NCBI GenBank assembly: GCA_003278175.1
Contig: QCGF01000012.1
Coordinates: 1 to 32,057 of the forward strand
Direction: 5' to 3'
Source: Prochlorococcus sp. AG-363-P15
Lineage (GTDB): Bacteria > Cyanobacteriota > Cyanobacteriia > PCC-6307 > Cyanobiaceae
DNA length: 32,057 bases
Shown here: positions 6,657 through 22,869 of the stretch, piece after piece
How positions within the stretch are numbered: position 1 is the first letter of the stretch
How the letters are laid out: each line of letters starts with the position of its first letter
The notes under the pieces: model-generated
The model's database searches: none
What the model saw: the letters and a program-made list of their open reading frames with translations, nothing else
What the model was told of the DNA's origin: nothing
Made by a program: the position numbers and the translations under genes

Positions 6657-6728
6657 TTATTAGGTGGATTCAAGCAAGGCAAATGAGCTCTATTCAAATT
6701 GACGCAGAAAAAAAGAATAAACAGACCT

Positions 6729-7328
6729 ATGGAAAAATCTAAAGGCCAAAAACCACTATTCCCTTTAACAGGGGCAAACAATTTCACTTCCCAAAGTCAC
6801 AGCGAACTAATTCTTAGGAAAGATGTATTACTAAATTGGCAGAAAAAAATCCACTCTTATCAATCCAAACTTTTTACAGGATCACCTATAAACCACAAAC
6901 AAGGTTCACTTTTCAATGTAGAGGAAAAGAGATCTATTGATAATTTCGAACCCTTAAAGCTCACGCCATTACCTCTTAGTTTTTGGCGCTGGCCAAAGTC
7001 TTCACTCCAAGGTCCAGCTATTTATTTAGTTATGGACATACTGGAAGATTGCGATTCACACATATTGCTGTACATAGGTGAAACACTGGCAGCAGATCGC
7101 CGCTGGAAAGGAGAACATGACTGCAAAGCTTATCTTTCTGCCTATTCAGAAGCACTTAGCAATGCAGGGATTCAACAACAACTGAGTATTCGTTTTTGGT
7201 CAGACGTCCCAAGGAATACCCGTTCCAGGAGAGAATTAGAGCAACAACTTATAAACCTATGGCTTCCACCATTTAATAAAGAGTCAAGAGCACGCTGGAG
7301 TACACCTTTCACAGCAAAGATCAACTAA
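6729..7328 (+). CDS. GIY-YIG-like nuclease domain protein with QxxLF motifs
   Basis: A protein of about 199 aa from the ATG at 6729; an in-frame TTG at 6699 would add 10 residues. The C-terminal half resembles a GIY-YIG endonuclease core. GPAIYLVMD supplies the first strand, LLYIGET the second, a basic stretch with R-R-W-K-G-E-H follows, and a late E in RRELEQQLINLWLPPFN matches the metal-binding Glu and the terminal PPFN seen in this superfamily. The N-terminal 75 residues are polar, probably flexible, and contain three Q-x-x-L-F pentapeptides. The GIY-YIG call is from motif order only. By family it would cut or nick DNA, but the target is unknown. pepA follows after 36 bases. Confidence 0.7.
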   Translation: MEKSKGQKPLFPLTGANNFTSQSHSELILRKDVLLNWQKKIHSYQSKLFTGSPINHKQGSLFNVEEKRSIDNFEPLKLTPLPLSFWRWPKSSLQGPAIYLVMDILEDCDSHILLYIGETLAADRRWKGEHDCKAYLSAYSEALSNAGIQQQLSIRFWSDVPRNTRSRRELEQQLINLWLPPFNKESRARWSTPFTAKIN

Positions 7329-7364: not shown

Positions 7365-8843
7365 ATGGAAATTTCCCTCAATCCTGCAGAGCCCCGAAAC
7401 TGGCATGGATCTGTACTTATTTTAGGAGTCTTTGAAAGAGACCTAGTAGAACAGATCAAAACCCTTGAACTCCAATATCAAAAATACTTACTTGAAAGGC
7501 TTAAAGAGAATAATTTCAAAGGAAAACCTGGAGAAGTATCCAGTTCTCATCTCCTAGGAGATTATTCACACAAATTGATCCTCATCGGGCTAGGCAATCC
7601 CGAAAACCTTCTTCTAGACGACTTAAGGAAAGCAACCGCAATCGGAATCCGCGAAAGCATTGGCAGCAAAGGAAAACTAGGAATTGCTTTACCTTGGGAT
7701 CTATTTAATCCTGAATCAGTAGTAAAGGCTGTAGGGGAAGCAATTCAACTTTCTCTTTTTAAAGACCTTCGTTTTCAAAGCAAGCCCGAGCGAAATACCC
7801 ATCCGGAAAACTTTGAACTCCTTGGAATTTCGAAAATATCAGAAAAAACCCTTAAAGAAATCCCATCGATTTGTGCTGGCGTAGAGCTTGCGAGAGAACT
7901 TGTTGGGGCACCAGCAAACAGTCTTACTCCCACTGCACTCGCAGAGAAAGCCCTACTAATTGCCAATGAATATGGACTTGATTCAAAAATTCTAGAGAAA
8001 GAAGACTGCCTCAAAAGGGAAATGGGAGCTTATCTTGCAGTTGCGCAAGGTTCAGACTTAAAGCCAAAGTTCATACATCTCATCTATCGACCAGAAGGCC
8101 CGATAAAACGCCGTCTTGCAATAGTAGGCAAAGGTCTAACATTTGACTCCGGTGGCTACAACCTCAAAGTTGGAGCAGCTCAAATAGAAATGATGAAGTT
8201 TGACATGGGAGGTAGCGCAGCAGTCATAGGAGCAGCAAGAGCAATCGGAGAGCTTCGTCCTCTAAACATAGAAGTCCACTTCATAATTGCAGCCTGTGAA
8301 AACATGATTAATGGCTCAGCGATTCATCCAGGAGATATTATTCAAGCTTCAAACGGGAAGACAATAGAAATAAATAACACAGATGCGGAAGGACGACTAA
8401 CACTTGCTGACGCACTTGTCTATGCATGCGAGCAAGAGCCAGATGCGATAGTTGACCTTGCGACTCTTACTGGGGCATGTGTAATTGCACTAGGAGAAGA
8501 AATAGCAGGACTATGGACCGACAACAATGAACTCGCAGAGTCTTTAATTTTGGCTGCCAACAATTGTGGGGAGGGGCTATGGCGTATGCCATTAAAAAGC
8601 TCTTATAGAGAAGGATTAAAGTCCATGCTGGCAGATATCAAAAACACCGGTCCCAGAGCAGGCGGCGCAATCACTGCTGGTCTTTTTCTTAAAGAATTTG
8701 TCAACGATTCAATCCCATGGGCGCATATAGATATTGCTGGCACTGTTTGGTCAGATAAAGATCGTGGAATAGACCCAGCTGGAGCCACTGGATATGGAGT
8801 TCGCACACTTGTGAACTGGGTTTGCTCTCAAAGCGAGGATTAA
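7365..8843 (+). CDS. pepA: Leucyl aminopeptidase (M17 family)
   Basis: A 492-aa cytosolic metallopeptidase of the usual cyanobacterial length that releases N-terminal residues from peptides. The two-metal active site is intact: the VGKGLTFDSGGYNLK segment supplies Lys and Asp, MMKFDMGGSAAV supplies another Asp, and the family signature NTDAEGRL supplies Asp, Glu and Arg. The N-terminal regulatory domain occupies about the first 170 residues. The start ATG at 7365 has no strong Shine-Dalgarno. It probably shares a transcript with the GIY-YIG gene. An imperfect AT-rich hairpin follows the stop. Confidence 0.96.
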   Translation: MEISLNPAEPRNWHGSVLILGVFERDLVEQIKTLELQYQKYLLERLKENNFKGKPGEVSSSHLLGDYSHKLILIGLGNPENLLLDDLRKATAIGIRESIGSKGKLGIALPWDLFNPESVVKAVGEAIQLSLFKDLRFQSKPERNTHPENFELLGISKISEKTLKEIPSICAGVELARELVGAPANSLTPTALAEKALLIANEYGLDSKILEKEDCLKREMGAYLAVAQGSDLKPKFIHLIYRPEGPIKRRLAIVGKGLTFDSGGYNLKVGAAQIEMMKFDMGGSAAVIGAARAIGELRPLNIEVHFIIAACENMINGSAIHPGDIIQASNGKTIEINNTDAEGRLTLADALVYACEQEPDAIVDLATLTGACVIALGEEIAGLWTDNNELAESLILAANNCGEGLWRMPLKSSYREGLKSMLADIKNTGPRAGGAITAGLFLKEFVNDSIPWAHIDIAGTVWSDKDRGIDPAGATGYGVRTLVNWVCSQSED

Positions 8844-22531: not shown

Positions 22532-22843
22532 TCAAGAAGAGAATTCACTGTCAGACAATTCGTCATATAACAAGTCAAGTCCTATCAAAACTCTTTCCCG
22601 ATCTGATAAATCACCAATAATCCGACGAACTGGAGGAGGTAGAATTTTAGCCAACGTTGGCGTAGCAAGAATTTTATCCTCCTCAGCAAGCTGAGGATTC
22701 TTAAGAACATCAATAACCTTCAAGGCATAAACCCCTCGAAACTCCTTCTCCAAAATTTCACGCAATGTTTTCAGTGCTCGCATTGAGTTTGGAGTGTTTC
22801 CAGCAACATAAAGCTTAAGTATGTAGGTTTTTCTTGGACTCAT
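22532..22843 (-). CDS. kaiB: Circadian clock protein KaiB
   Basis: A 103-aa thioredoxin-like clock protein that binds the KaiC CI ring. From the chosen start it reads [19 protein letters not shown] and continues through [19 protein letters not shown] and [20 protein letters not shown], nearly identical to S. elongatus KaiB. The open frame extends 8 codons further upstream, but an AGGAG 7 bases before ATG 22843 and the family's usual N-terminus fix the shorter start. It is upstream of kaiC on the same strand and divergent from rplU. Confidence 0.97.
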
Positions 22844-22850
22844 GACGTAA

Positions 22851-22855
22851 CTCCT
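22851..22855 (-). promoter_or_regulatory. Shine-Dalgarno fixing the kaiB start
   Basis: AGGAG on the minus strand with a 7-base spacer to ATG 22843. It supports the 103-aa KaiB rather than the longer open frame. Confidence 0.7.
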
Positions 22856-22869
22856 AGACACCTGCAATA

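Follow-up and report, generated by a model that had tools for sequence, protein, structure and literature searches.

A conserved GIY-YIG protein with sliding-clamp motifs as a candidate nuclease for MutL-less mismatch repair in Cyanobiaceae

The window, the whole stretch of DNA analysed here (32,057 nucleotides), is a contig of Prochlorococcus sp. AG-363-P15, the source genome being 57% complete. On its forward strand, positions 6729-7328 encode a protein of 199 amino acids counted from the ATG (there is an in-frame TTG at 6699), and the next gene on the same strand is the leucyl aminopeptidase gene pepA (7365-8843). A first, sequence-only reading had picked out three QxxLF pentapeptides, resembling those by which ligands bind the bacterial sliding clamp DnaN, at the N-terminus of this protein. 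Indeed, the open reading frame contains all three exactly: motif 1, QKPLF (6747-6761, residues 7-11); motif 2, QSKLF (6861-6875, residues 45-49); and motif 3, QGSLF (6900-6914, residues 58-62). A GIY-YIG domain occupies 7011-7298 (residues 95-190). Elsewhere in the window, kaiB (22532-22867) directly precedes rplU (23032), leaving no room between them for kaiA, as expected for Prochlorococcus.

The sequence-only reading had also held that the three motifs exceed what chance would supply. This was confirmed, both by shuffling, as composition-preserving shuffles produced three QxxLF motifs in residues 1-73 once per 200,000, and by the retention of Q, L and F across 134 homologues (94 distinct Cyanobiaceae orthologues and 40 other cyanobacterial homologues). 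Of these two results, conservation carries far more weight than the number of motifs or the shuffles. At the Q, L and F positions, the majority residue accounted for 97% (motif 1), 70% (motif 2) and 95% (motif 3) of the 134 sequences, compared with 21-23% in the three linkers. Within the 94 Cyanobiaceae orthologues, Q7, Q45 and Q58 were conserved at 97-100%, and L and F nearly so, while residues 12-25, 50-57 and 63-72 drifted. An orthologue alignment of this kind had been chosen beforehand as a test able to refute the clamp interpretation, which survived it. The remaining open reading frames of the window hold three QxxLF motifs in about 9,900 residues. The pentapeptide by itself is weak evidence, since the neighbouring PepA contains QLSLF at residue 128 (7746-7760), presumably inside a folded domain. 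So short a motif might be thought to turn up by accident in a low-complexity tail, but the shuffles and the conservation together rule this out, and we give it a negligible chance of being correct.

The three motifs are not equivalent. Motif 1 has the Cyanobiaceae consensus RQG[DE]LF, with Q, L and F present in 97%, 96% and 93% of the 94 orthologues; outside the family it lies at the extreme N-terminus as KQLSLF, EQLNLF or NQLNLF, Q and L each being found in 39 of 40 homologues and F in 36. Motif 3 (consensus Q[GST]SLF) is similarly widespread, with Q in 94/94, L in 88/94 and F in 89/94 Cyanobiaceae sequences, and takes the form Q[TVAG]xLF outside them, for example QTSLF (Q 39/40, L 38/40, F 34/40). 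In contrast, the LF of motif 2 (consensus HQ[SA]P[LI]F; F49 in 85 of 94) is retained only in Cyanobiaceae. In the 40 outside homologues, QQVR-like residues take its place after Q45, and at the position of F49 arginine is commonest (25/40), with F absent from the six commonest residues. Three equivalent motifs were therefore ruled out. Since motifs 1 and 3 persist outside Cyanobiaceae and motif 2 loses its LF there, the alignment identifies the former as the apparent ancestral pair and the latter as a Cyanobiaceae-specific addition on a conserved helix.

The AlphaFold2 model of the window protein (mean pLDDT 71) shows a mixed alpha/beta domain from about residue 80 onward. Motifs 1 and 3 lie within low-confidence, disordered segments (residues 1-25 and 52-63), and motif 2 forms the end of a confidently predicted helix (6819-6875, residues 31-49; pLDDT 83-87). 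The N-terminus had been described as flexible, which holds for motifs 1 and 3 and fails for motif 2. The helix also carries W37 and Q45, which were found in 93 of 94 Cyanobiaceae sequences (the sole exception being truncated) and in 40 of 40 outside, residues 37-38 reading WQ in Cyanobiaceae and WK elsewhere. With its Q fixed even where the LF is missing, motif 2 may have a structural role.

The assignment of the C-terminal part to the GIY-YIG fold, as first suggested, rests on structural comparison, on a trend in Pfam matches and on conserved residues. In VIA-align, the top rows were almost all GIY-YIG enzymes, led by T4 EndoII (Z 8.3, rmsd 2.9 over 102), I-TevI (Z 6.0, rmsd 2.6 over 81) and UvrC (Z 5.7, rmsd 3.1 over 82), with R.Eco29kI also among the leading rows; unrelated folds scored clearly lower, save for a Grx domain from a plant (Z 5.6). 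Neither plain Foldseek nor plain sequence searches against solved structures returned a significant match. The Pfam profile PF01541 scored 17.8 bits against the window protein, below its cut-off of 22.6 (E 0.004), and matched 32 of 35 orthologues at E up to 1 (best 1e-5). Y99, Y115, R125 and N183 are invariant in the 134 homologues, E171 is present in all but one, and H130 is invariant or nearly so; we take these six to be the likely catalytic residues, from motif spacing relative to I-TevI and UvrC. On these grounds we are fairly confident that the protein is an active nuclease. It resembles T4 EndoII, I-TevI, the N-terminal domain of UvrC and R.Eco29kI in fold and in the pattern of catalytic residues, but shares only 15-17% identity with them, and to our knowledge none of those domains carries paired clamp motifs. 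Apart from GIY-YIG, the 199 residues gave no Pfam match, including to the NucS C-terminal nuclease domain (PF01939), and none to the ATPase or C-terminal domains of MutL.

The clamp itself appears competent to receive such peptides. DnaN of the window's genome keeps the residues of the E. coli pocket (L155, T172, G174, H175, R176, L177, P242, M362 and P363), and the pocket is intact in 14 cyanobacterial genomes, the window's own and 13 others. Two near-complete genomes of one genus (G610 and G449) gave no DnaN match with TIGR00663, for which an inserted element or an artefact of the search may be responsible. In seven Cyanobiaceae, the window's own genome included, DnaE has SGQGNLFD or SGQGNIFD at about residue 927; the same-genome DnaE thus bears QGNLF, of the same class as the nuclease motifs, at the internal clamp-motif position, and by its sequence this serves as an internal reference for the peptides that the Cyanobiaceae clamp would accept. 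Moreover, motif 1 outside Cyanobiaceae (QLSLF or QLNLF) fits the published bacterial clamp-binding consensus, QL(S/D)LF (PMC9690074). Together these observations make it very likely that the GIY-YIG protein is tethered to DnaN through its motifs. The original proposal of a clamp-tethered nuclease thus stands as regards the fold and motifs 1 and 3, which occur phylum-wide and match the clamp consensus, and is amended in that the three motifs are unequal.

A single-copy orthologue was found in 371 of 399 Cyanobiaceae genomes and in 263 of the 269 that are near-complete (at least 90%), including those of only 1.6-1.7 Mb; the clamp-motif nuclease is a single-copy core gene of this family, carried by nearly all picocyanobacteria of oceans and lakes. 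Outside Cyanobiaceae its distribution is patchy, with strong scores in 45 genomes and marginal matches in four more in a phylum-wide sample. A quick tree grouped the outside copies mostly by family, its deep branches being unsupported. In 70 of 80 Cyanobiaceae loci pepA is adjacent downstream on the same strand, as it is in none outside, and the pepA/DUF1825/tyrS synteny is likewise confined to Cyanobiaceae. With no context conserved beyond the family, functional linkage from gene neighbourhood was ruled out, and pepA is probably not functionally linked to the nuclease.

Nostocales and Oscillatoriales have plasmid-borne copies, which lack conserved repair neighbours. The plasmid homologues, in Nostoc, Phormidium and Cylindrospermopsis, are annotated 'GIY-YIG nuclease family protein', and some lie near TnpB, AIPR or HNH genes. 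Those of Phormidium yuhuli and Cylindrospermopsis curvispora are homologous to the window protein over their whole length, with QLSLF or QLNLF and a second QxxLF, but differ from it in that identity is 33-38%, motif 2 lacks LF and the hosts tested have MutL. On three Nostoc plasmids, a conserved 67-aa gene lies about 20 bases downstream of the homologue (L277:6603-6806, L278:6516-6719 and L279:6415-6618); its product has four cysteines with zinc-ribbon-like spacing and is possibly a partner or regulator of the homologue. Some Nostocales (G557 and G723) contain several fragmented family copies with internal stops, which suggests turnover of copies. Phage records, viral contigs, PHROGs and PADLOC yielded no match to the nuclease, ruling out a phage or known defence origin.

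The lineage in which this gene is universal has an unusual complement of mismatch repair genes. Earlier work reported that no cyanobacterium has mutH and that several P. marinus also lack mutL (PMC5101192), and that strain MED4 has mutS without mutL or mutH, any repair role for its MutS having been left to biochemistry (PMC2921402). We found MutL over the cut-off in none of 81 Cyanobiaceae genomes (59 genera); in the phylum sample it was found in 0 of 58 Cyanobiaceae genomes compared with 304 of 328 others. Where it occurs in photosynthetic cyanobacteria (L193-L199), MutL has EQHIAHERxxxE instead of DQHAxxExxxxE, the usual MutL endonuclease motif. The idea that cyanobacterial MutL generally lacks a nuclease site was dropped, as this variant and the ACR, CPHGRP and FRR motifs are kept. 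NucS was absent from all 12 Cyanobiaceae genomes searched and was ruled out as their alternative mismatch enzyme.

MutS1, on the other hand, is kept despite the loss of MutL, scoring over the cut-off in 72 of 81 Cyanobiaceae genomes and matched in 50 of 50 near-complete ones, and it retains the mismatch-reading FxE motif. In 29 of 32 Cyanobiaceae MutS1 proteins (loci L209-L220 and L231-L250) an N-terminal extension carries QxxLF, mostly QGSLF, and a C-terminal motif was found in none; the other three have no recognisable clamp motif. Conversely, among 20 MutS1 proteins of other cyanobacteria (L251-L270) none has the N-terminal motif, and a C-terminal one, typically QLDIF, is present in 15. Judged from these sequences, the MutS1 clamp motif moved from the C-terminus to the N-terminus, coinciding with the loss of MutL, and this relocation took place in the same lineage that came to carry the clamp-motif nuclease universally.

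These results are consistent with a model whereby a GIY-YIG endonuclease is held on DnaN by short peptides within an N-terminal region that is mostly disordered. The hooks would be the N-terminal QxxLF and a second QxxLF some 50 residues on, with a possible third on the intervening helix in Cyanobiaceae. The two peptides could fill both pockets of one clamp dimer, so keeping the nuclease on DNA that has just been replicated. In Cyanobiaceae, MutS1, through the N-terminal QGSLF hook that it gained, and the nuclease would meet on the clamp, whose orientation would supply strand discrimination; the nuclease, for which the fold and conserved residues predict nicking activity, would nick, and the erroneous strand would be removed from the nick. 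With MutL lost and a MutS bearing the same hook kept, the nuclease may be the cutter that is lacking. The sequence-only reading had suggested a part in repair or in replication-linked cutting, which this model narrows to one specific hypothesis. We put the probability of the whole explanation, that of a clamp-tethered nuclease nicking for MutS1-dependent, MutL-less repair in Cyanobiaceae, at about 0.5. That the nuclease supplies the mismatch-repair nick, a step argued from one lineage, is a slightly less than even prospect. We suggest more tentatively that mismatch repair in picocyanobacteria dispenses with MutL, the clamp joining MutS1 to a stand-alone GIY-YIG nickase through N-terminal QGxLF hooks.

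Several observations temper this model. The loss of MutL in Cyanobiaceae looks like a single event, so its correlation with the nuclease has little statistical weight. No linkage of the nuclease gene to mutS1 was seen in the loci compared, which counts against a repair role, as do the three Cyanobiaceae MutS1 proteins without a motif. Homologues elsewhere coexist with MutL, sometimes on plasmids, and this weakens the repair role further. Indeed, MutL was present in every one of the 45 genomes outside Cyanobiaceae that have a strong homologue, which rules out strict replacement, whereby the family would occur only where MutL is absent; given also the plasmid copies, the nuclease family taken overall does not stand in for MutL.

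This coexistence, and the existence of plasmid copies, would be expected if the protein were a clamp-tethered, structure-specific endonuclease acting independently of MutS1 in another replication-coupled task, on a flap, a branched intermediate, a ribonucleotide or a lesion. The evidence for the tether applies equally to such a role, and T4 EndoII, to which the protein came closest in the structural comparison, does not act in repair. What it fails to explain is why a gene that is patchy elsewhere should be universal in just the lineage that lacks MutL and has a rewired MutS1 motif. We consider it a serious possibility, nearly as likely as the supply of a mismatch-repair nick. The plasmid homologues, the TnpB, AIPR and HNH genes near some of them and the fragmented copies might instead point to a mobile or defensive nuclease, engaged in plasmid competition or in attack on invading DNA and using the clamp to locate DNA under replication. 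This is unlikely for a syntenic, single-copy core gene that is retained in the smallest Cyanobiaceae genomes and has no counterpart in the phage, viral and defence collections. Less likely again is that the motifs bind some partner instead of DnaN, or that they pack against the rest of the protein and so stabilise its fold. The position of motif 2 on a conserved helix, its fixed Q and the QLSLF of PepA would fit such an arrangement, but motifs 1 and 3 are unstructured, conform to the clamp consensus and are similar to the DnaE motif of the same host.

If MutS1-dependent nicking is correct, the closest functional counterparts of the nuclease would be NucS/EndoMS and the nuclease domain of MutL; it would also recall plant MSH1, while belonging to none of these families. 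NucS/EndoMS of Archaea and Actinobacteria is likewise a stand-alone endonuclease found where canonical MutS-MutL repair is missing, but differs in fold and family. NucS occurs in species that have no MutS and recognises mismatches on its own, while Cyanobiaceae keep MutS1. In Actinobacteria, NucS also contacts the clamp, by way of a clamp-binding motif (PMC8228993, PMC9690074). In bacteria without MutH, the MutL endonuclease domain is clamp-tethered by a short motif, nicks and works with MutS (PMC9690074); a similar tether is predicted here for a GIY-YIG protein that has an unrelated fold and no ATPase. Plant MSH1 is a MutS fused to a GIY-YIG domain, for which an atypical repair mechanism has been proposed (PMC12292046). 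The pathway we propose would likewise combine MutS with a GIY-YIG nuclease, but from distinct proteins that both bear a clamp motif, and no fusion was seen; nor did we find evidence of common descent with MSH1.

Few phototrophs are as abundant as Prochlorococcus and marine Synechococcus. In the open-licence literature we found no paper joining GIY-YIG with clamp-binding motifs, and even without a part in mismatch repair, the core clamp-tethered GIY-YIG nuclease described here appears to be new. It is a concrete and near-universal candidate for the nuclease missing from any picocyanobacterial mismatch repair, and the relocated motif of MutS1 provides a second, independent clue, so that the question of repair in these organisms becomes directly testable. 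If the proposal is true, it would be a third prokaryotic solution to mismatch repair, beside MutS-MutL(-MutH) and NucS.
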